Source of the DNA: Aquibium microcysteis
Lineage (GTDB): Bacteria > Pseudomonadota > Alphaproteobacteria > Rhizobiales > Rhizobiaceae
DNA length: 64,000 bases
Direction: 5' to 3'
Assembly: GCF_014495845.1 (NCBI RefSeq)
Contig: NZ_CP061080.1
Coordinates: forward strand, 3,337,001-3,401,000
Positions within the stretch are counted from its first letter, which is position 1. Every line of letters begins with the position of its first letter. The notes below the pieces were generated by a model. That model was given only the letters and a program-made list of their open reading frames with translations. It was not told where the DNA came from and did not search any database. This document shows positions 17,716-28,883 of this stretch, in pieces. Position numbers and translations under genes: made by a program.

Positions 17716-18564
17716 ATGCCCCTGTCCCTCGCGCCGATCGATTCGGCCTCAGCCTTCGGAACCCGCGCGCCGGGGCGCTTCGCGTGTCTCGTCTGGGCGC
17801 TGACCGTTTCGGCCGGGATCCCGCAGGCGCGCCGCAAGGCGATCCGCAAGCACTTCGCCGCGAGGCTTGCCGGCCCCTTCGACGTGACGGCGGGCGGCAT
17901 CGCCTTCCGTGCCTATCCGGCGGAAAACCGCGACGACCGCATGCTGGTCGGCCGCGGTGAACTGCCGGAGGCGGAGGAGCACGCGCTCGTCGCGCCGCTG
18001 CTGAAGCCGGACATGGTCTTCGTCGACATCGGCGCCAATGTCGGCACCTACGCTCTCTTCGTGGCCACGCGCGCCGGACCGGGCGCCCGCGTGCTCGCGT
18101 TCGAGCCGCATCCGCGCACCTTCGCCAAGCTCGCCTTCAACCTCTGCGCCAATGGCGCCCGGAACGTCGTCGCCAGGAACCTCGCCATCGCCGCGGCGGC
18201 CGGCACGATGGAGCTCTATTCGGACGGTGGCGGCAACGTCGGTCACGCCTCGCTCCTGAAGGAGGGAGCAGGAACGGTCCGCAGCACCCAGTCGGTGCAG
18301 GTCGCGCCCCTCGCCGCCATCCTCGCGGAGGAAGGCATCGAGGCGATCGACCTCCTGAAGATCGACGTCGAGGGCTTCGAGGACCGCGCCCTTCTGCCGC
18401 TCTTCGACCAGGCGCCGGAACGGCTCTGGCCGGCGGCCATCCTCATCGAGACCGTGCTGTCGACGCTCTGGCAGCACGATTGCCTCGCCGTCCTGGCCGA
18501 GAAGGGCTATCGCCGCGCCGGCGAAACGGCCGAGAACGTGCTTCTGGTGCGCACGACGCCCTGA
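17716..18564 (+). CDS. FkbM-family SAM-dependent methyltransferase
   Basis: A 282-residue protein with a Rossmann methyltransferase fold. FVDIGANVGTYALF (about residues 101-114) is the SAM-binding glycine motif. VLAFEPHPRTFAKLAFNL follows as the acidic ribose-binding strand, and LLKIDVEGFE (about 212-221) is the diagnostic FkbM signature. FkbM relatives O-methylate sugars, polyketides or other hydroxyl groups. With a glycan cluster about 9 kb away, sugar methylation is possible but unproven. ATG 17716 was preferred over the upstream frame because GGAAGAA precedes it and the earlier residues are low complexity. Confidence 0.85.
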   Translation: MPLSLAPIDSASAFGTRAPGRFACLVWALTVSAGIPQARRKAIRKHFAARLAGPFDVTAGGIAFRAYPAENRDDRMLVGRGELPEAEEHALVAPLLKPDMVFVDIGANVGTYALFVATRAGPGARVLAFEPHPRTFAKLAFNLCANGARNVVARNLAIAAAAGTMELYSDGGGNVGHASLLKEGAGTVRSTQSVQVAPLAAILAEEGIEAIDLLKIDVEGFEDRALLPLFDQAPERLWPAAILIETVLSTLWQHDCLAVLAEKGYRRAGETAENVLLVRTTP

Positions 18565-18802: not shown

Positions 18803-19684
18803 ATGATTTTCACGAAGACGAAGATGGCCGGTCTCGGTCTGGCGATCACGATGGCGGGCGCGATGGCGGCGCAGGCCGAGCCCGTGAAGATCGGCAGCAA
18901 GAACTTCACCGAACAGTTCGTCGTGGCGGAGATCTATGCGCAGGCGCTGGAGAAGGCCGGCATCGAGGTCCAGAAGCGCCTGAACCTCGGTGCGACGCAG
19001 ATCGCCCACACCGCTCTGACGAGCGGCGAGATCGACCTCTACCCGGAATACACCGGCACCGCCCTCGCGGCGATCGTCAAGGGCGAGCTTACCAGCGACG
19101 CCGACCAGATCTATGCCGACGTCAAGACCTACTACGAGAATGAACTGAACCTGACGCTGCTCGAGCCGACGGCCATCAACAACGGCTACGCCATCATCCT
19201 CCTGCCGGAGACGGCCGAGGCCAACAACCTCAAGACCCTCAGCGATCTCGGCCCCGCCTCCAAGGATCTGACCTTCGGCGCGGAAGGCACCTTCGGCGAG
19301 CGCAAGGACGGCCTGCCGGGCCTCGAGGCGGTCTACGGCATCAAGTTCAAGGAATTCGTCCAGTTCGCCAAGCTCGGCATCCGCTACAGCGCGCTGACCA
19401 GCGAGCAGATCGACGTCTCCTTCGGCTTCTCCACCGACTGGCAGATCGAAGACAGCAAGCTTGCCGTTCTCGAAGACGACAAGAACCTGTTCCCGCCCTA
19501 CTATCTCGTGCCGATCGTGCGCCAGGACGCGCTGGCGGCGAACCCGAAGATCGCCGAGGTGCTCAACAGGATCGCTCCGCTTTTGACCAACGAGAAGATG
19601 CGCGCGATGAATGCCGCGGTCGAGCGCGACCGCCGGGAGCCGGCCGAGGTGGCCGCGGAATTCCTTGCCGCGGAAGGAATGTGA
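18803..19684 (+). CDS. substrate-binding protein of an osmoprotectant/betaine-type ABC importer (OpuC/ProX class)
   Basis: A 293-residue periplasmic binding protein. ATG 18803 follows CAGGAGTG. A signal peptide (MAGLGLAITMAGAMAAQAEP) ends near residue 25. VKIGSKNFTEQFVVAEIYAQ begins the mature protein and is a hallmark of the OpuAC/OpuBC/ProX domain. LYPEYTGTAL and FGAEGTFGERKDGLPGLEA are further family motifs. The family binds quaternary ammonium compounds such as glycine betaine, choline or carnitine through aromatic residues, and some members bind ergothioneine (EgtU). Ligand choice cannot be fixed from sequence, but the catabolic genes downstream argue for uptake as a nutrient. Confidence 0.9.
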   Translation: MIFTKTKMAGLGLAITMAGAMAAQAEPVKIGSKNFTEQFVVAEIYAQALEKAGIEVQKRLNLGATQIAHTALTSGEIDLYPEYTGTALAAIVKGELTSDADQIYADVKTYYENELNLTLLEPTAINNGYAIILLPETAEANNLKTLSDLGPASKDLTFGAEGTFGERKDGLPGLEAVYGIKFKEFVQFAKLGIRYSALTSEQIDVSFGFSTDWQIEDSKLAVLEDDKNLFPPYYLVPIVRQDALAANPKIAEVLNRIAPLLTNEKMRAMNAAVERDRREPAEVAAEFLAAEGM

Positions 19685-19688
19685 TCCC

Positions 19689-19724
19689 GGATTGCCCGCC
19701 CGCCTGAGGCGCGGCGGGCAATCC
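19689..19724 (+). repeat. strong hairpin between the binding-protein and permease genes
   Basis: GGATTGCCCGCC (19689-19700) pairs perfectly with GGCGGGCAATCC (19713-19724). An inner CGCC-TGA-GGCG extends the stem. There is no U-tract, so it more likely protects or processes the 3' end of the binding-protein message, or attenuates expression of the permeases, than fully terminates. Confidence 0.6.
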
Positions 19725-19734
19725 CTTCAACGAG

Positions 19735-20382
19735 TTGGTTCCAGATGATGGTCCGCATTTGACCTGGGCACACAAGAACCTCGGTCTGATCGCCGAGGCG
19801 GCGGGCCAGCACCTGACGCTGTCGTTCCTGTCGGTCCTGATCGGCTGCGCCATCGCGCTCGTGCTGGGCGTCATATCCGCGCGTCGCCCACGCCTCTACG
19901 TGGCGTTCCTGACGATCGCCGGCATCGTCTTCGTCATCCCGAGCCTCGCCCTGTTTGCCTTCCTGATCCCGATCATGGGACTGGGCATGAAACCCGCGCT
20001 CACGGGCCTGTCCTCCTATTGCGTGCTGATCCTCTTGCGCAACGTCGTGACCGGGCTCCGCAACGTCCCCGCCGAGGTGCTGGACGCCGCCGACGGCATG
20101 GGCTTCAGCCGCTGGCAGCGCCTCGTCAGGATCGAGCTGCCGCTGGCCCTGCCCCTGATCGTCTCCGGCATCCGGATCGCGCTCGTCACCGTCATCGGCA
20201 TCGCCACCATCGCCGCCTTCATCGACGCGGGTGGGCTGGGCTCGATCATCCTGCAGGGTATCGACCAGAACTGGCCGGAAAAGATCATCGTCGGCGGCGT
20301 GCTGACGGCGCTGATCGCCGTGTTCTTCGATCTCCTCCTGACCTGGATCGAGCGCCGGCTGCAGCGCTGGAGGCAGGCATGA
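19735..20382 (+). CDS. osmoprotectant-type ABC permease, first subunit
   Basis: A permease of up to 215 residues in the OpuCB/OpuCD class. LTLSFLSVLIGCAIALVLGV is the first TM helix. Later TM segments include IAGIVFVIPSLALFAFLIPI and ISGIRIALVTVIGIATIAAFI. The coupling loop lies near EVLDAADGMGFSRWQRLVRI. There is no ATG at a sensible position, so the start is TTG at 19735, or TTG at 19759 giving MTWAHKNLGL, and no strong Shine-Dalgarno precedes either. The hairpin upstream may lower its expression relative to the binding protein. The stop overlaps the next permease start by four bases. Confidence 0.85.
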   Translation: MVPDDGPHLTWAHKNLGLIAEAAGQHLTLSFLSVLIGCAIALVLGVISARRPRLYVAFLTIAGIVFVIPSLALFAFLIPIMGLGMKPALTGLSSYCVLILLRNVVTGLRNVPAEVLDAADGMGFSRWQRLVRIELPLALPLIVSGIRIALVTVIGIATIAAFIDAGGLGSIILQGIDQNWPEKIIVGGVLTALIAVFFDLLLTWIERRLQRWRQA

Positions 20383-21026
20383 ACCTGCTGTGGCAAGCCT
20401 TCACCTGGATTCTCGACAATCCCGTCCCTTTCAACCGCGCGCTCTACCAGCATCTCGTGATGTCGATCTCGGCGATCGCCATCGCGCTGGCGATCGGTCT
20501 GCCGCTCGCCGTCGTGATCCTGCGGCACGCGAAGTGGGCATCCGCCGCCATCAACCTCGTCAACGGCATGCGCACGCTGCCGAGCCTCGCCATCCTCGCC
20601 ATCATGATGCCGATCCTCGGCATCGGCCTGTGGCCCGCCATCGTGGCGCTGACGATCCTGGCGCTGCCGCCGATCCTCATCAACGCCTATGTCGGTCTCC
20701 GCGACGTCGACCCGGATTCCATCGAGGCGGCGGCCGGCATGGGCATGAGCGACGGCCAGATCCTGCGCAAGATCCGCGTCCCGCTTGCAGCGCCCGCCAT
20801 GTTCGCCGGATTGCGCACGGCCTCCGTGCAGGTCCTCGCCGGCGCTACGCTCGCGCCCTTCATCGGTGGCGGCGGGCTCGGCGACTTCATCGCCGTCGGC
20901 GTCGCGGGCATGGACCAGTCGCGGCTGCTCGTCGGCGCCGTGCCCATCGCGCTGCTCGCACTCGGTACCGAGTTCGCGCTCGGCCTGGTGGAACGGCTGT
21001 TCTTCGGAGAAAGACGCGCCGCATGA
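20379..21026 (+). CDS. osmoprotectant-type ABC permease, second subunit
   Basis: A 215-residue permease homologous to the preceding one. About five to six TM helices are visible, for example HLVMSISAIAIALAIGLPLA and LAILAIMMPILGIGLWPAIV. The EAA loop is at SIEAAAGMGMSDGQILRKIR. C-terminal GGGGLGDFIAVGV matches GGLGSIILQGI of the partner. ATGA overlaps with both neighbours indicate strict co-translation, and the two subunits should form a heterodimeric channel in the inner membrane. Confidence 0.9.
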   Translation: MNLLWQAFTWILDNPVPFNRALYQHLVMSISAIAIALAIGLPLAVVILRHAKWASAAINLVNGMRTLPSLAILAIMMPILGIGLWPAIVALTILALPPILINAYVGLRDVDPDSIEAAAGMGMSDGQILRKIRVPLAAPAMFAGLRTASVQVLAGATLAPFIGGGGLGDFIAVGVAGMDQSRLLVGAVPIALLALGTEFALGLVERLFFGERRAA

Positions 21027-21949
21027 TCGTCATGAAGAATGTGACCAAGCGGTTCGGCGCCGGTGCCCCGGCCGTCGACGACCTGACGCTCGAGGTCCCG
21101 GACGGCCTCACCGTCGCGCTGGTCGGGCCGTCCGGCTGCGGCAAGACGACGACGATGCGCATGATCAACCGCCTGATCGAGCCGACCAGCGGCGAGCTCA
21201 TCGTCGGCGGCCAGGACGTGCGAAAGGCCGACCCGGTGCAGCTGCGTCGGCACATCGGCTACGTGATCCAGCAGGTCGGCCTGTTCCCGCACATGACGAT
21301 CGCCCAGAACATCGCCTCGGTGCCGAAGCTGCTCGGCTGGGACAAGGCGCGGATCGACGCGCGCAACCGCGAACTGATGGAACTGGTGGGGCTCGAGACC
21401 GGGATGCTGGAGCGCTATCCGCGCCAGCTGTCCGGCGGCCAGCGCCAGCGCGTCGGCGTCGCCCGCGCGCTGGCGGCGGACCCGCCGGTCCTGCTCATGG
21501 ACGAGCCCTTCGGCGCGATCGATCCGATCGCGCGCCTGCGGCTGCAGAACGAATTCCGGCAGATCCTCGCGCGCGTCCGCAAGACCGTGGTTCTGGTCAC
21601 GCATGACATCGACGAGGCCGTGCGCCTGGGCGACCGGATCGCCATAATGCGGGACGGGCGCATCGTGCAGTACGACACGCCGGACACCATCCTCTCCAGG
21701 CCCGTCGACGCATTCGTGGAACATTTCGTCGGCGCCGACCGCGCGCTGAAGCGCCTGACCCTGTTCAGCGTCGCCGATGCGATGGAGCGTGGCGGCGGCG
21801 ACGCATCGCTTCCACACGTCGCGGCGGACGCCGATCTGCGCGACGCCCTGTCGGCGATCATCGCGGCGAAGGCGGAGAGCGCTGCGGTCGTCGACGGCGC
21901 CGGCATGGTGATCGGAACCATCAGCCGCGACCGGATCATGTCGATCTGA
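21023..21949 (+). CDS. osmoprotectant-type ABC ATPase with C-terminal CBS segment (ProV/OpuCA class)
   Basis: A 308-residue ATPase. Walker A is GPSGCGKTTTMRM (about residue 36), the signature is LSGGQRQRVGVARAL (about 135), and Walker B is VLLMDEPFGAID. The C-terminal segment (about 240-308, ending GMVIGTISRDRIMSI) looks like a single CBS motif, the domain that in ProV/OpuA senses ionic strength or nucleotides. It is shorter than OpuCA proteins with two CBS motifs. It completes a four-component importer, and the next gene starts two bases after its stop. Confidence 0.92.
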   Translation: MIVMKNVTKRFGAGAPAVDDLTLEVPDGLTVALVGPSGCGKTTTMRMINRLIEPTSGELIVGGQDVRKADPVQLRRHIGYVIQQVGLFPHMTIAQNIASVPKLLGWDKARIDARNRELMELVGLETGMLERYPRQLSGGQRQRVGVARALAADPPVLLMDEPFGAIDPIARLRLQNEFRQILARVRKTVVLVTHDIDEAVRLGDRIAIMRDGRIVQYDTPDTILSRPVDAFVEHFVGADRALKRLTLFSVADAMERGGGDASLPHVAADADLRDALSAIIAAKAESAAVVDGAGMVIGTISRDRIMSI

Positions 21950-22611: not shown

Positions 22612-23867
22612 GCGCGACGATGAAGCTCGGCGCGTTCCTCATGCCGACCGGCCACCATGTCGCCGCGTGGCGCCACCCGCAGGCGGCCGCCGATGCGGGC
22701 ATGAACGTCGATCACATGATAGCGCTGGCGCAGACGGCCGAGCGCGGCCTGTTCGACCTCGTCTTCTTCGAGGATGCAGCCGGCGTGCGCGAGGCGCGCG
22801 TCGAGATCGCCTCGCAGACCGCCCGCTCGCTGGGTTTCGAGCCGGTCAGCCTGCTTTCGGCGCTCGCGGCCCGCACGCGGACCATCGGCCTCGTGGCGAC
22901 CGCTTCGTCCTCCTACAACGAGCCCTACGCGCTCGCCCGCGCCTTCGCCACGCTCGACCTCGTCAGCGGCGGACGGGCGGGCTGGAACCTCGTCACCTCT
23001 GCCAGCGAGATCGAGGCCGCGAATTTCGGCGCGCAGGGTCTGCGCGCGCATCGGGACCGCTACGCCAGGGCGGACGAATTCGCAGCAGTGGTCGCGCGGC
23101 TGTGGAGCCCCGGAAACCGCTCCGGGACGATCGACCATGTCGGCGAGAGCTTCTCGGTCCGGCAGGGGCTCGGCATTCCCGCGTCGCCGCAAGGCGCGCC
23201 GGTGCTGGTGCAGGCCGGCTCGTCGGACGTCGGCCGCGACCTCGCGGCCCGCACCGCCGACATCGTCTTCGTGGCGACCCAGACCTTCGACGCCGCAAAG
23301 GCCTTCTACGACGACGTGAAGGCGCGCGTCGTCCGGGCGGGACGCAAACCCGACCAGCTGAAGATCATGCCGGGGGTGTCGCCGGTGGTGGGAAGGACGC
23401 GTGACGAGGCGCAGTCGAAGTTCGATGCGCTTCAGGCGCTCATTCCCGACGAGGTGGGACTGGCGCTGCTCGCGAGCTATCTGTCCACCGATGCCCTGGA
23501 GGGCCTGCCGCTCGACGGTCCGATGCCAGACCTGAAGGCGAACGAGGGAATGCAGAGCCGTCAGCAGCTGGTCATCGACCAGTCGCGCCGCGAGGGCTTG
23601 AGCATCCGCCAGGTGGCGCAGCATTTCGCCGGCGCCCGCGGCCACTGGCGGCTGATCGGCACCGCGGCCGACATCGCCGACGAACTGGAAGCCTGGTTCG
23701 TCGGCGCCGCCTGCGACGGCTTCAACGTGATGCCGGCCTGGTTCCCCGGGGAACTGGACGATTTCGTCGACCTGGTGATCCCGGAACTGCAGCGCCGCGG
23801 GCTGTTCCGGACGCGATACGAAGGCGGCACCTTGCGCGCCAATCTCGGCCTCGAGGTGCCGGCATGA
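22608..23867 (+). CDS. LLM-class flavin-dependent monooxygenase (NtaA/SnaA/DmoA type)
   Basis: A 419-residue enzyme, the usual length for the NtaA/SoxA/DszA family of FMNH2-dependent two-component monooxygenases. These cleave C-N or C-S bonds in compounds such as nitrilotriacetate, dimethyl sulfide or dibenzothiophene derivatives. Motifs in order are FLMPTGHHVAAWRHP (N-terminus), FDLVFFEDAAG, TASSSYNEPYALARAFATLD, SGGRAGWNLVTS, PVLVQAGSSDVGRDLAART and FVGAACDGFNVMPAWFPGEL near the end. A separate flavin reductase would be needed and none is encoded nearby. It overlaps both neighbours by four bases and sits directly downstream of an ABC importer, so the imported compound or a product of it is a likely substrate. 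Confidence 0.88.
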   Translation: MSATMKLGAFLMPTGHHVAAWRHPQAAADAGMNVDHMIALAQTAERGLFDLVFFEDAAGVREARVEIASQTARSLGFEPVSLLSALAARTRTIGLVATASSSYNEPYALARAFATLDLVSGGRAGWNLVTSASEIEAANFGAQGLRAHRDRYARADEFAAVVARLWSPGNRSGTIDHVGESFSVRQGLGIPASPQGAPVLVQAGSSDVGRDLAARTADIVFVATQTFDAAKAFYDDVKARVVRAGRKPDQLKIMPGVSPVVGRTRDEAQSKFDALQALIPDEVGLALLASYLSTDALEGLPLDGPMPDLKANEGMQSRQQLVIDQSRREGLSIRQVAQHFAGARGHWRLIGTAADIADELEAWFVGAACDGFNVMPAWFPGELDDFVDLVIPELQRRGLFRTRYEGGTLRANLGLEVPA

Positions 23868-24631
23868 GCGACATCGTCGAGAGCATCGTCCACGACATCG
23901 AGAACCTGCTGCCCTTCGATCCGCGCGAGGATGCGATCGAGGGACTGACCCATGCCTACGACATCCAGAAGAAGGTGACGGCCGCGCTGCTCGACCGACA
24001 TCCCGGCCGCCGCATCGCCGGCTACAAGATCGCCTTCAACAGGCGCTCGTCGATGGATTACTATGGCCTGAGCGAGCCCTGCTATGCGCCCCTGTTCTCC
24101 GACCAGATCCATTCCGGCAGCGCGACGTTGCCGTTTCGCCTGTATCGCGATCCGGTCATCGAGCCGGAAATCGCGATCCGCCTTTCCGCCACCCTCACCG
24201 GCAACGAGGACGACGCGGGCGTGGAAGCGGCGATCGGCGTCCTCCTGCCTGCGATCGAGATCATGGACGTGCGCGGCGCCTTCGCGCGGGACCCGAGCGC
24301 GGCCGCGGCCGTCGCCCAGCGCGTCCACGCCGAGGGCGCGGTGATCGGCGAGGCCGGCAGCCGCTGCGCGGTCGACGTCGCCGACGTGGTGGCGAGGCTC
24401 CGGGTCGACGGCGAAACGCGCGGCGAGGCGAAAGGCGCCGCACCGCAGACGCCGACGGAAGCGCTTGCCTGGCTGTCGCGCCGGCTCGCCGCGGACGGGC
24501 TGCCGCTCGAGGCCGGCATGATCGTGCTCACCGGCGCGCATCTGCCCGGCTTCGCCCTGACGAAGCCAAGCTCCGTCACCGTCGAGATCGCGCCGCTGGG
24601 CACCGTCTCGCTCAGCCTGCGAGGCTCCTGA
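23864..24631 (+). CDS. 2-keto-4-pentenoate hydratase / FAH-fold family protein
   Basis: A 255-residue enzyme of the MhpD-like branch of the fumarylacetoacetase fold. DPVIEPEIAIRLSATL (about residues 98-113) contains the E-x-E metal ligands, with a further acidic residue in IEIMDVRGAF. GYKIAFNRRSSMDYYGLSEP precedes them, as in hydratases or decarboxylases acting on 2-hydroxy-2,4-dienoates. It probably processes a carbon skeleton released by the upstream steps. It is last in the rightward run, and its 3' end overlaps the convergent lyase-like gene by 20 bases (24612-24631). Confidence 0.8.
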   Translation: MSDIVESIVHDIENLLPFDPREDAIEGLTHAYDIQKKVTAALLDRHPGRRIAGYKIAFNRRSSMDYYGLSEPCYAPLFSDQIHSGSATLPFRLYRDPVIEPEIAIRLSATLTGNEDDAGVEAAIGVLLPAIEIMDVRGAFARDPSAAAAVAQRVHAEGAVIGEAGSRCAVDVADVVARLRVDGETRGEAKGAAPQTPTEALAWLSRRLAADGLPLEAGMIVLTGAHLPGFALTKPSSVTVEIAPLGTVSLSLRGS

Positions 24632-26135
24632 GTTCGCCGACGACCTGCGGCGTCCACAAGGCCTCGAAGACCCTCGCGGCATCCGCACCCGTGGGACGAT
24701 CCTCGTCGAGCGCGGGGACCGCCGAACGGACGGCGTCATGAACACGCAGACAGACCGGGGACAGCGCCGGCCCGGGCTCGATCCGCCGGCGCAGGTCGAC
24801 GGCTTGCGCCGCGAGCATGGCTTCGATGGCGAGGAGCCATCGCATCGGTTCGACCTGTTCGGCGAGCTTTGAAACCGCGAGCACGGCGTTGGTCCCGATG
24901 TCCTCCACCATCTCCGAAACCACGATCGTGTCGAGGCTCGCCGGCGTGGCCCTGAGCCTGATTTCGGCATGCAGGGCCGCGAGCGATTTCTGCATCGGAA
25001 CGAAGCCGGCCGAAGCGCCGCCGACCGGCGACAGATAATTGGCAAGGCCGGACAGGCGGCCGGTCGTCAGCTTGATGGAGCGCTGCACGCAGGCCGTCGC
25101 GAGTTGCACCATCGCGATGGCCAGCGTGTCGAAGGAAAGCGCGATCGATGCCGTCAGGAAGTTCGCGGAGGATCGAACCTCGCCCTGCGGCCCGATCACC
25201 AGGGGGTTGTCGGCGGGCGAATTCAGCTCGATCTCGACCTCCCGGCGCGCGGTCTCGAGCGCGGCGAGGAATGGACCGGTGACCTGCGGCAGGGCGCGGA
25301 ACGACAGCGCGTCCTGCACCTTCTGCGAGGTCCGCGAGACATGGCCGCCGCCCGAAAGCGCGGCCCGAAACAGCGAAGCCGCCTCGACCTGCCCCGCCGC
25401 AGGACGGGCGCCGGCGATCCGCGCGTCGAAAATGTGCGGGCTGGCGCCAAACCCCTCGCAGGCGAGGGCCGCGACGGCGACATGGACGGCCGCGAGGTCT
25501 TCCAGCGCCGCGATCGCCAGCGCCGCCGTCGCCACCGTGACCGAAGAGGCGCTGCCGATCGACAGCCCGTCCTTGGGCGCCAGCCGGGCGGCGGCAAGCC
25601 CTGCCCTGGCCAGCGCGTCGCGCGCCGGCAATCGGACGCCGCCCAGATACGCCTCCCCCTCGCCGATCGCGGCAGCAGCCAGGCTCATGGTCTGCACGAG
25701 GTCGCTGGCGCCGGTCGATCCGCGCGAGGGGATGACCGGCACCACGTCCCGCGCCAGCATCTCCGACAGCAGGTCGAAGACCGGAAGCGACACCCCGGCG
25801 CCCGCCTGCGCGAGCCCGGCGAGGCGGCAGAAGAGAACCGCCCGGCAGACGTCGACCGGCAGCGCCGCGCCCACGCCCGCGACGCGCGCCGTTACAAGCG
25901 AGGCCTGCAGATCTTCGGCCTCCGCCGCGTGGATCCGGTGGCCGATATTGCCGCCGAGCCCGGTGTTCAGCCCGTAGACGGGAATGTCCCGCGCGAGATG
26001 ATCGTCGAGCACGCCGCGCGCCTGCTGCATCGCCGCGCGCCGCACGGGGCTCGCCGTGACCGCGACCGGCCCCTGCGCGGCAGCGACAACGTCGGCGATC
26101 GTCACCAGCCGGTCAGAGAAGACGAACGTCCTCAT
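24612..26135 (-). CDS. histidine ammonia-lyase family protein with altered MIO motif
   Basis: A 507-residue member of the HAL/PAL superfamily, close to the usual length (about 510). Family landmarks are VYGLNTGLGGN (Tyr54), TGASDLVQTM (141-150), KDGLSIGSAS (188-197), VQDALSFRALPQV (Arg280) and NSPADNPLV. In true lyases the Ala-Ser-Gly triad cyclises to the MIO electrophile. Here it reads Ala143-Ser144-Asp145. The catalytic Asn of INGT is replaced (about Ser195) and the QDPYSLR Tyr becomes Leu277. Classical ammonia-lyase chemistry is therefore doubtful. Elimination of a better leaving group, as in ergothionase, is an alternative. It overlaps the upstream cyclodeaminase-like gene by four bases. 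Confidence 0.8.
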   Translation of the reverse strand: MRTFVFSDRLVTIADVVAAAQGPVAVTASPVRRAAMQQARGVLDDHLARDIPVYGLNTGLGGNIGHRIHAAEAEDLQASLVTARVAGVGAALPVDVCRAVLFCRLAGLAQAGAGVSLPVFDLLSEMLARDVVPVIPSRGSTGASDLVQTMSLAAAAIGEGEAYLGGVRLPARDALARAGLAAARLAPKDGLSIGSASSVTVATAALAIAALEDLAAVHVAVAALACEGFGASPHIFDARIAGARPAAGQVEAASLFRAALSGGGHVSRTSQKVQDALSFRALPQVTGPFLAALETARREVEIELNSPADNPLVIGPQGEVRSSANFLTASIALSFDTLAIAMVQLATACVQRSIKLTTGRLSGLANYLSPVGGASAGFVPMQKSLAALHAEIRLRATPASLDTIVVSEMVEDIGTNAVLAVSKLAEQVEPMRWLLAIEAMLAAQAVDLRRRIEPGPALSPVCLRVHDAVRSAVPALDEDRPTGADAARVFEALWTPQVVGELRSLAG

Positions 26136-27136
26136 GCGTAGCGCAGCCGGTGCCCGACGCCCATGCTCTGCGCCTTCGTCAGGAAGGCATGACCGAGCGC
26201 GATGTCGGACAGGGAGAGGCCGCGATGCCAGAACAGGTTGGTTTCCGCCTCGCTCTCGCGGCCGGGCTTCAGTCCGGCGACGATCTGGCCGAGTTCGGCA
26301 TGAAGCGTCCGTTCCGACAGCTTGCCGGCCTCGACATGGGCGCGCAGCGAGCCGAACTTGCCGCCCTTGCACTGCCCCCAGTCGTCCACCACCATCTTCG
26401 CCATGATGTCGGTGAGCGAAAGCTCCACCGCGCTCATCGTTCCGTAGGGCACGACGAGCGCGCCCGGCTTGATCCACTCCGTCTTCAGCATCGGCCGGGG
26501 CTCGCTCAGCCGCGAGGCCTCGACCACGATGTCGGCGCCTTCGACGCAGGAACGCCAGTCCTCGGTGACGGTCACCGCCTTGCCGAGGTCGCGGGAGAGC
26601 CGTTCTCCGAAGCTCTCCCGGCTTTCGGGCCGGCGCGAATGCACGCGGATCTCGTCGAAGTCGAAGAGATGATCGAGGAGCCGCACGTTCCAGTACGCCG
26701 TGCCGCGCGCGCCGATATGGCCGAGCACCTTCGAGCCCTTGCGCGCCAGGTGCTTGGCGCCGATGGCTGTGACGGCGCCGGTGCGCATGTCGGTGATGCC
26801 GCTGGCATCGAGGATGGCCGTGGGCTTGCCGGTGCGCGGATCGAAGAGGTTGAGGACTCCGAATTCGGACGGCATGCCGTGCTTGTAGTTGTCGACGAAG
26901 TCGCCGACGATCTTCACGCCTGCCGCGTCGATCTCGCCGCCGATCCAGCCGCGCAGCACGTTGAAATGGCCCTCCACGCCGGCGCGCGGCTCCAGATGCA
27001 TGCGCGGCTCGATGACCGTTTCCCCGCGTCCCTGCATGGCCAGACTGGCCTCGATCGCCGCGAGAATCTCGCCATCCCCGAGCATGGCCGCCTCGATGTC
27101 GAAGCGGTTGAGGTAGGTGATGTAGATGGGGAGCAT
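26132..27136 (-). CDS. ornithine cyclodeaminase / mu-crystallin family protein
   Basis: A 334-residue NAD(P)-binding protein. The central Rossmann segment KVLGHIGARGTAYWNVRLL (about residues 137-155) contains the G-x-G-x2-G-like turn. ILDASGITDMRTGAVTAIGA is the diagnostic OCD stretch just before it. Similar proteins are annotated in databases as tyramine oxidase subunit B, a label I regard as weakly supported. OCD relatives include ornithine cyclodeaminase, ketimine reductases and alanine dehydrogenase. The frame extends upstream to 27385, but ATG 27136 follows AGGA and begins where family similarity starts. It is the first gene of the leftward pair with the HAL-like protein. Confidence 0.82.
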   Translation of the reverse strand: MLPIYITYLNRFDIEAAMLGDGEILAAIEASLAMQGRGETVIEPRMHLEPRAGVEGHFNVLRGWIGGEIDAAGVKIVGDFVDNYKHGMPSEFGVLNLFDPRTGKPTAILDASGITDMRTGAVTAIGAKHLARKGSKVLGHIGARGTAYWNVRLLDHLFDFDEIRVHSRRPESRESFGERLSRDLGKAVTVTEDWRSCVEGADIVVEASRLSEPRPMLKTEWIKPGALVVPYGTMSAVELSLTDIMAKMVVDDWGQCKGGKFGSLRAHVEAGKLSERTLHAELGQIVAGLKPGRESEAETNLFWHRGLSLSDIALGHAFLTKAQSMGVGHRLRYA

Positions 27137-27320: not shown

Positions 27321-28883
27321 CTACGGGCGGCGCCTGTAGAACCTGTCGCCGACGACGAAGCCGTCGAGCCCCGTGTCGCGGACATAGCGCACCAGATCGC
27401 TCATCCGGTTGATGAAGCCCTTGCCCGAGAAGTTGAGCGAGGTGTTGCAGAGAACGCCATAGCCGGTGCGCGCCTTGAAGGCCGACAGCAGCGCGTGCAT
27501 CCGCGCGTTCTGCGCGGCGGTGACCGTCTGCGCCCGCGCGGATCCGTCGACATGGGTGACGGCCTGGATGGCGTCGGTCTTGACGCGCTGGAAATAGAGC
27601 ATGTGCGGGCTCGGCCCGTGATGCGTAAACAGCCGGTCGAGCTCCTCCTCGAGCAGAATCGGCGCAATCGGGCGGAAGCCCTCGCGCTTCTTGATCGCGT
27701 TGAGGCGCGTGTGCATCTCCTTCGTGAAGGGGGCCGCGATCAGCGACCGGTTGCCCAGCGCGCGCGGGCCGATCTCGTAGCGCCCCTGCACCCAGGCGAG
27801 CACGGCGCCGCCGGCCAGCGCCTCGGCCACCACGGCATCGTCGGCGGGCACGGCGGCGAAGCCCGTCAGGTCGGCCGCATCATGCACGAAATCCTCGCCG
27901 GCATAGGCCGTCCAGGCGATCTTGGCATTGCCGGTGATGCGCAGCTGTGCATCGGCGGCTGTGCCGATGGCGGAACCGGAATCATTGGTGCAGGGCTGCA
28001 CGAAGACGTCCGCGAACAGGCCGCAGCCCTTCCATTCGCTGTTCCAGTCGCAGTTGAGGCCGCAGCCGCCGGAGACCAGCAGCGGCAGGCCGTCGCGCAT
28101 GTTCGCCCTGGCGAAGTCGAGAAAGCGCGAAAACATCGCGTCCTGGAAGCGGCGCGCCAGATTGCGGAAGGCTTCGGTCTCCAGCCCGATGTCGAAGAAG
28201 GGCGTGCCGACGAAGTCCGCCTTGCGCAGCGGCGCGGCCACCGCGTCCCAGGCGATCAGCCGTTCGATCAGTTCCCGCTCCTCGGGCGTCTCGGGAACGT
28301 CCCGGCCATAGCCGGCGATCGCCATCAGCTTGCCCGCGTCCTCGCGCCGCGACTTGCGGGCATCGATCGCCAAGGTCGGGTCTGCCAGCCCGTAGAGGAA
28401 GCCGTATTTGTGGCCCGGACCGGTGACCGGGGTGCCGAGCTTCGTCACCTGGAGTTTCTCGTCGATGCGGTAGAACGAACCGAGCACGCCCTCCCACACC
28501 AGCGCGTAGCAGGCCTGACCCTGCGGGAACGGGGACATGGCGTAGCTGCCGATGATGTGGGACCGCTCGTGCGAGGACGAGAAGAAGCGCACCTCCTTGC
28601 CCGCGAAGCGCTGCGGACGGTCGATGATGCCGCTCTCGTCGTGCCCGAAATAGCCGGCGCCGAGCGGCTGCGCGAACGGCCGGAACGAGCCCATCCAGCC
28701 CGACAGCGCATGCACGTCCGGAATGGCGTCGCAGAGACCGAGCCCGCGCAGCACGAGTTCCGGCGTCACCGGCGCATAACGCGGGCCGGAATCCTTCTCC
28801 GCCTCGATCGAGAAGGCGAGCGTCGCGTCCTCGATCAGGGCGACGTGACCGTCGTGACCGGGCTTGTAGGAAAAGATCTTCAT
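27321..28883 (-). CDS. carbamoyltransferase, NodU/CmcH/TobZ family
   Basis: A 520-residue enzyme expected to transfer a carbamoyl group from carbamoyl phosphate, through a carbamoyl-adenylate, to a hydroxyl group. The N-terminal part has an ASKHA-like nucleotide fold (SYKPGHDGHVALIEDATLAF with metal-binding His residues; LLVSGGCGLNCDWNSEW about residue 267). The C-terminal carbamoyltransferase domain carries EIGPRALGNRSLIAAP (about 367). ATG 28883 follows GCGGAGCGC. The gene stands alone between two other leftward genes. Its acceptor is unknown, but carbamoylated sugars, antibiotics and Nod factors are precedents. Confidence 0.88.
   Translation of the reverse strand: MKIFSYKPGHDGHVALIEDATLAFSIEAEKDSGPRYAPVTPELVLRGLGLCDAIPDVHALSGWMGSFRPFAQPLGAGYFGHDESGIIDRPQRFAGKEVRFFSSSHERSHIIGSYAMSPFPQGQACYALVWEGVLGSFYRIDEKLQVTKLGTPVTGPGHKYGFLYGLADPTLAIDARKSRREDAGKLMAIAGYGRDVPETPEERELIERLIAWDAVAAPLRKADFVGTPFFDIGLETEAFRNLARRFQDAMFSRFLDFARANMRDGLPLLVSGGCGLNCDWNSEWKGCGLFADVFVQPCTNDSGSAIGTAADAQLRITGNAKIAWTAYAGEDFVHDAADLTGFAAVPADDAVVAEALAGGAVLAWVQGRYEIGPRALGNRSLIAAPFTKEMHTRLNAIKKREGFRPIAPILLEEELDRLFTHHGPSPHMLYFQRVKTDAIQAVTHVDGSARAQTVTAAQNARMHALLSAFKARTGYGVLCNTSLNFSGKGFINRMSDLVRYVRDTGLDGFVVGDRFYRRRP

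Follow-up and report, generated by a model that had tools for sequence, protein, structure and literature searches.

Can a protein with the fold of histidine ammonia-lyase (HAL) still be a lyase when the Ala-Ser-Gly triad of the 4-methylideneimidazole-5-one (MIO) cofactor is incomplete, and on what kind of substrate would it act? The question is raised by a gene of Aquibium microcysteis in a stretch of 64,000 nucleotides of contig NZ_CP061080.1 (positions 3,337,001 to 3,401,000), hereafter called the window. A preliminary description of this DNA had placed the open reading frame (ORF) at 24612..26135, and these coordinates hold; the coding strand is the minus strand, and the plus-strand frame is interrupted by a stop. 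A Pfam profile search assigned the PF00221 fold to the 507-residue product at 400 bits, and its score for the hutH equivalog TIGR01225, 332 bits, did not reach the cut-off of 539. Our results indicate that this protein, the query, represents a real and conserved subfamily, often mis-annotated, of MIO-less lyases of the ergothionase type that is set apart by its active site and operon.

The translation and the unambiguous codons at the loop (tcg acc ggc gcc agc gac ctc gtg) bear out the motif TGASDLVQTM at residues 141-150, which had been described as carrying Asp in place of the Gly of the triad. While this is fair as a literal reading, alignment with HAL points to a one-residue deletion and not to a Gly-to-Asp exchange. 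The loop comprises nine residues, GSVGASGDL, in the HAL of P. putida and in 22/22 canonical rows, whereas the query has eight, GSTGASDL. As judged from this alignment, the query has lost the triad Gly, and its Asp corresponds to the conserved one that follows the triad (HAL Asp145).

A protein search with the query yielded 627 relatives among 7997 scored candidates, and the best 120 of the 627 (96% to 46% identity) together with the query form the set of 121 proteins considered here. The short loop length and the post-triad Asp are found in all 121 of them. The loop residues vary, with GSIGAGDL in 45 proteins, GSTGASDL in 17, GSLGTGDL in 15, GSIGAADL in 12 and other variants in fewer. Since 17/121 proteins carry exactly GSTGASDL and the loop length is equal throughout, chance or a sequencing error is unlikely; since the loop Ser is not conserved, the group as a whole could not form MIO by the known route. 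The loss of MIO proposed in the preliminary description is upheld, with Ala-Ser-Gly absent from every scored member of the group. Eight residues (Tyr54, Lys188, Asp189, Gln274, Arg280, Lys383, Glu411 and Asp412) are each kept in 120 or 121 of the 121 proteins: Arg280 and Glu411 are invariant, Tyr54 is missing once through a gap, and Lys383 is replaced by Met in P0045 alone. The same protein has a Cys at position 84, where Arg is present in 119/121 (the second exception is a gap). Among the sequences sampled, the loop length between Gly-Ser and Asp-Leu separated MIO-less from canonical proteins, and Lys383 is a second mark with few exceptions.

The remainder of the active site was compared with known enzymes of the superfamily. 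Relative to HutH (P. putida 1b8f/1gkj and the host's own copy; 32-33% identity), the query retains the fold and the equivalents of Tyr54, Arg280 and Glu411, but it lacks Ala-Ser-Gly, the second Tyr and the Asn of INGT, carries Lys for Val and lies outside the hut locus. The alignment agrees with the earlier reading that INGT has become GSAS and QDPYSLR has become QDALSFR, with Leu277 for the second Tyr, and that Tyr54 and Arg280 are kept. Phenylalanine and tyrosine ammonia-lyases (PAL, TAL) and the aminomutases of PF00221, all of which use MIO, are 23-30% identical to the query, and their MIO triad is absent from it. The ergothionase of T. denticola (PDB 6s7j/6s7q, a structure reportedly due to Maurer et al. 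2019) shares the HAL fold, the one-residue-short loop (SSIGEGDI), QDxLSFR (as QDPLSFR), an equivalent of Tyr54 and, in its IQK and IED motifs, Lys and Glu at the same positions. Active-site Lys and Glu are catalytic in ergothionase, and the HAL His at the position equivalent to Arg84 contacts the imidazole. Ergothionase differs from the query in having His at position 84, SCN versus SAS near position 195 and AGTIED versus SEMVED.

Two further sets of MIO-less proteins were available for comparison. A Blautia protein recovered with the query matches ergothionase 6s7j at 523 bits; among its 120 listed relatives, 117 were long enough to be scored, and these ergothionase-type proteins all have the short loop and the Lys (117/117 each), with His84 in 116/117. 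The second set, here termed Egt-linked (the 120 proteins listed when an Egt-linked relative was used to search), resembles the query in its short loop (120/120), Lys (120/120), Glu and clade, but differs in having His84 (119/120, one gap) and a cyclic-nucleotide-binding domain (PF00027, present in 100/120 according to precomputed domain annotation and N-terminal in 2/2 proteins scanned). These lyases of ~680 residues (L070:8718-13382 and P0242-P0361), one copy of which lies just ahead of EgtB-like and EgtD-like genes, possibly represent a regulated ergothionase-like enzyme. A MIO-less protein at locus L020 that is 40% identical to the query and carries His84 adjoins EgtB-like and EgtD-like genes, which ties the wider MIO-less clade to ergothioneine.

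In a tree of 71 rows, in which HALs served as the outgroup without PAL or TAL and 16 phylum-wide loci all read as canonical HAL, the MIO-less rows formed one clade with a Shimodaira-Hasegawa-like approximate likelihood ratio test (SH-aLRT) support of 100. Support was 99 for the query group, 100 for the ergothionase type, which sits on a long branch (1.3), and 86 for the Egt-linked group. Removal of the motif columns left these values at 98, 100 and 85, with 100 for MIO-plus versus the rest. As for the branching order of the three MIO-less groups, A plus B against C was not rejected (p 0.625). The tree thus indicates a single loss of MIO, relative to HALs only. Clustering with ordinary ammonia-lyases, the outcome named beforehand as contradicting a lyase of different chemistry, was not seen with respect to HALs, PAL and TAL being outside the tree. 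The best match of the query in VIA-align is ergothionase (28% identity). Together with the shared clade, the short loop, Lys383 and Glu411, this sustains the earlier suggestion of a resemblance to ergothionase and of different chemistry; Arg84 for His, other neighbours and the separate subclade show that the protein is not simply an ergothionase.

The betaine-type importer mentioned in the preliminary description is indeed encoded nearby, as a binding protein, two permeases and an ATPase at 18803-21949 (Table 1). The plus-strand run of importer, monooxygenase and hydratase genes converges on the minus-strand lyase and its partner of the ornithine cyclodeaminase/mu-crystallin (OCD) family, for which a longer ORF of 417 aa is possible. 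Monooxygenases of the NtaA/DmoA type cleave C-N or C-S bonds. The short luciferase-like (LLM) subunit measures 216-219 aa in the window and its nearest relatives (L003, L079 and L081); elsewhere, its called copies span 265-357 aa, as though part of it had been lost in the branch of the window. Two further genes, one for an FkbM-type methyltransferase (17716-18564) upstream of the importer and one for a carbamoyltransferase (27321-28883) beyond the OCD gene, are also present in Aquibium sp. ELW1220 (L003).

Table 1. Features of the lyase gene, its product and the flanking genes (positions within the window).
Feature	Position	Strand	Basis or remark
MIO-less HAL-superfamily lyase, 507 aa	24612..26135	minus	PF00221 fold; below TIGR01225 cut-off; tree placement
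Shortened MIO loop GSTGASDL, residues 139-146	25698..25721	minus	one residue shorter than HAL GSVGASGDL
Tyr54 (HAL Tyr53), putative beta-proton base	25974..25976	minus	homologue conservation
Arg84, at HAL His83 position	25884..25886	minus	homologue conservation
QDALSFR (HAL QDPYSLR), Leu277 for second Tyr, Arg280 kept	25296..25316	minus	alignment
Lys383	24987..24989	minus	common to ergothionase; Val or Cys in 22/22 canonical HAL rows
Glu411 (HAL Glu414)	24903..24905	minus	alignment and homologue conservation
OCD-family protein, 334 aa by gene caller	26132..27136	minus	3' end overlaps lyase start by 4 nt
OpuAC/OsmF-type substrate-binding protein, 293 aa	18803..19684	plus	profile matches
ABC permease (BPD_transp_1)	19759..20382	plus	profile match
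ABC permease (BPD_transp_1)	20379..21026	plus	profile match
ABC ATPase, ProV-like	21023..21949	plus	323 bits against cut-off 327
LLM protein, short subunit, 219 aa	21952..22611	plus	profile match
NtaA/DmoA-family FMN monooxygenase, 419 aa	22608..23867	plus	491 bits, above cut-off 280
FAA/2-oxopentenoate-hydratase-like protein	23864..24631	plus	below named cut-offs; 3' end overlaps convergent lyase by 20 bp

Neighbours were counted, as clusters by sequence, at 42 loci (41 distinct, L003 and L078 being the same), in all of which the lyase was called. In 31/42, an OCD-family gene is found no more than 9 kb away; it is adjacent on the same strand in 25, and 20 of those 25 show the 4-nt overlap. 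In the neighbour control, an OCD match was found within ~1.5 kb of the lyase in 31/52 MIO-less loci versus 0/22 canonical ones, a comparison between uneven samples, as the MIO-less loci were picked by likeness to the query and belong for the most part to the order and family of the host, whereas 16 of the 22 canonical loci stem from a phylum-wide draw. MttB occurs in 5/42 loci, none of which has LLM genes; at L060, L061 and L063 it is co-directional with a DAO-GCV_T protein upstream of the lyase, and at L082 all nine genes run in the same direction. The ergothionase relative at L004 has neighbours that differ from those of the query, including a BCCT transporter.

Plasmid-borne relatives extend this picture. 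On R. johnstonii pRL12 and in R. lentis, a short-chain dehydrogenase/reductase (SDR), MaoC and a HutC-annotated repressor precede the lyase, which is followed by a glycine-betaine-type binding protein, an OCD gene, a PhnD-like protein, permeases and an ATPase; a coenzyme A (CoA) transferase stands at the head of the pRL12 set. Genes annotated as CoA transferase, glucose 1-dehydrogenase and MaoC precede the lyase on Paracoccus pAMI4, where the OCD gene is absent from the stretch shown. A Streptomyces plasmid carries an OCD gene, the lyase and a betaine-type transporter, and its OCD protein shares 74% identity with its counterpart at L092, a locus of the host's family. Among five plasmid loci, the Peptoclostridium lyase is canonical and lies in a hut operon; the other four lyases are short-looped. 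The HutC-annotated repressor stands directly ahead of the MIO-less lyase on rhizobial and Martelella plasmids (L141:8096-8863, L142:7941-8813, L144:8216-8983) and, if it senses a urocanate-like enoate, would be a lead to the lyase product. The PhnD-like protein (PF12974, ~260-270 aa) follows the OCD gene in 7/42 loci, e.g., L059:17083-17898 and L074:12792-13577; no signal peptide was apparent by eye, and it may be an enzyme or a sensor instead of a transporter part.

On this basis, the query is probably a carbon-nitrogen lyase that, like ergothionase, does without MIO, belongs to a separate subfamily and acts on an imported amino-acid betaine. In the mechanism we propose, the importer would take up the betaine, Arg280 would hold its alpha-carboxylate, and Lys383, Glu411 and Arg84 would hold and polarise the side chain, rendering the beta-proton acidic. 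Tyr54 would then remove this proton, and trimethylamine or a similar good leaving group would depart without an electrophilic cofactor, leaving an enoate. The roles of Tyr54, Arg280, Lys383 and Glu411 are drawn from HAL and ergothionase precedent, and with a leaving group that is good in itself, MIO may not be needed. In the window, the enoate would perhaps be degraded via the flavin monooxygenase pair, the FAA-type hydratase and the OCD-family enzyme, and in the rhizobial plasmid relatives perhaps via CoA transferase, MaoC hydratase and SDR. For this enoate-CoA route, the rhizobial and Paracoccus neighbours are the only hint. As in the preliminary description, it is from sequence and context that we infer activity on a trimethylammonium substrate. 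A broader and more tentative proposal, to which we give somewhat less than even odds, is that this large uncharacterised MIO-less subfamily provides an additional catabolic route, in which a betaine whose side chain is recognised by Arg would be taken up and cleaved into trimethylamine and an enoate solely through acid-base catalysis, the genes lying in OCD operons with interchangeable importers and N-dealkylating or CoA-dependent modules.

As to the identity of the substrate, the exchange of His for Arg84 leads one to expect a side chain that is not a thio-imidazole and that perhaps bears an anionic or hydrogen-bond-accepting group. The binding protein of the window has Phe, Tyr and Thr at the positions of Gly244, Phe293 and Glu375 in the pneumococcal ergothioneine transporter EgtUC, as mapped by motif order and spacing without direct alignment, the assignment being weakest for Glu375. 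In excerpts of PMC9732360, these three residues are named among the ergothioneine determinants of EgtU, and the description given there of the glycine-betaine binder AfProX fits the Phe and Tyr at the first two positions. Because Arg84 replaces His and the binding-protein residues differ from EgtUC, a betaine other than ergothioneine is favoured, perhaps one with an acidic or carbonyl-bearing side chain. Support was insufficient for aspartate betaine, although Arg84 and Lys383 could bind its beta-carboxylate, as well as for hypaphorine, hercynine and sulfoniums of the dimethylsulfoniopropionate type, and for ring cleavage of homarine or trigonelline by the LLM pair.

Several observations weigh against a betaine lyase of the ergothionase kind. 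In plain pairwise comparison the query scores higher against HAL (223 and 218 bits) than against ergothionase 6s7j (194 bits), and Foldseek ranked four HAL chains before ergothionase at an equal TM-score of 0.91. The accessory genes are not constant: LLM genes are found in only 16/42 loci and OpuAC in 15/42, and a family-5 (oligopeptide-type) binding protein is encoded in 9/42, never together with OpuAC (at L093, Opp-type permeases stand alongside the OpuAC set). It is also hard to see what the OCD-family partner would contribute to a trimethylamine-lyase pathway. In the host genome, neither trimethylamine N-oxide demethylase nor gamma-glutamylmethylamide synthetase was found over curated cut-offs, trimethylamine monooxygenase and dehydrogenase not having been searched; with nothing over cut-off for the two searched families, a known route of trimethylamine use is not evident. 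The genome does encode four MttB homologues. Finally, L103, L104 and L105 fall on the query side of the tree with the short loop, yet lack the Lys. These three carry Ser-Leu or Ser-His where others have Gln-Lys, possibly a third active-site type, and the neighbouring genes called in the corresponding longer loci L114-L116 included none recognised as OCD-family.

The OCD-family gene, as the most constant partner of the lyase, leads to the alternative that the protein, still independent of MIO, acts as a lyase or mutase on a different bond or leaving group (sulfonium, secondary or cyclic amine, beta-substituent) and that the OCD enzyme reduces the resulting imine. The best named match of the OCD partner, an archaeal alanine dehydrogenase (178 bits, below the cut-off of 409, and again the top match in another search), is consistent with this, as is the bond cleavage carried out by NtaA/DmoA-type monooxygenases. 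However, the binding protein is of the quaternary-ammonium type, and the MttB-family and Egt-like neighbours of relatives point to N-methylated substrates, making this alternative unlikely.

Slightly less likely still is that the query is an ergothionase, which would convert ergothioneine to thiourocanate by elimination of trimethylamine. In its favour, PMC7653990 reports ergothionase activity from Agrobacterium radiobacter, and the query shares the MIO-less clade, short loop, Lys383, Glu411 and QDxLSFR with the T. denticola enzyme. Against this stand its separate subclade, Arg84 where nearly all scored ergothionase-type and Egt-linked proteins have His, and the binding protein that differs, by motif spacing, at all three EgtUC positions. 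The genomic setting may point the same way: the single 6.1-Mb contig of the host contains two PF00221 genes, the query and a canonical HAL (606 bits, G000:C1:5503078), and the only urocanase match sits 2.2 kb from the latter and not by the query lyase; no EgtD-type match was found in the host genome. Because canonical HAL and urocanase stand together away from the query, histidine breakdown appears to be provided for elsewhere. Plain ergothionase was therefore rejected as a name on the grounds of Arg84, the separate subclade and the gene context.

A non-catalytic or decaying HAL paralogue, to which the loss of the MIO triad and of two HAL active-site residues might point, is very improbable and was set aside as the main reading, since the eight residues described above are conserved down to 46% identity and the gene stays coupled to the same OCD-family partner. 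An ordinary ammonia-lyase making MIO from Ala-Ser-Asp is the least credible reading and was likewise set aside as the main one, for although Ala-Ser is literally present, the Asp is the post-triad residue of a loop that is one residue short, many homologues read Ala-Gly-Asp, Thr-Gly-Asp or Ala-Ala-Asp and hence have no Ser to dehydrate, and the second Tyr and the Asn are gone.

To our knowledge, ergothionase is the only characterised MIO-less member of the superfamily. The open-access literature searched, at the level of titles and abstract openings, contained no report of other MIO-less HAL relatives. Excerpts of a 2026 study describe ergothionase as lacking MIO and state that BLAST for its relatives gave similarity to ammonia-lyases only (PMC13405746); the accession of a Burkholderia ergothionase, BAM63550, is also given there. 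In public records, genes for MIO-less lyases often carry the names hutH or histidine ammonia-lyase, which misleads pathway reconstruction. Should they prove to be betaine lyases, they would be an overlooked source of trimethylamine and a means of using plant and algal betaines, adding to amino-acid betaine catabolism in soil and plant-associated bacteria, and would show the HAL fold working cofactor-free when the leaving group is good. As a minor observation, the relative at L048 contains an in-frame TAG within the matched region.
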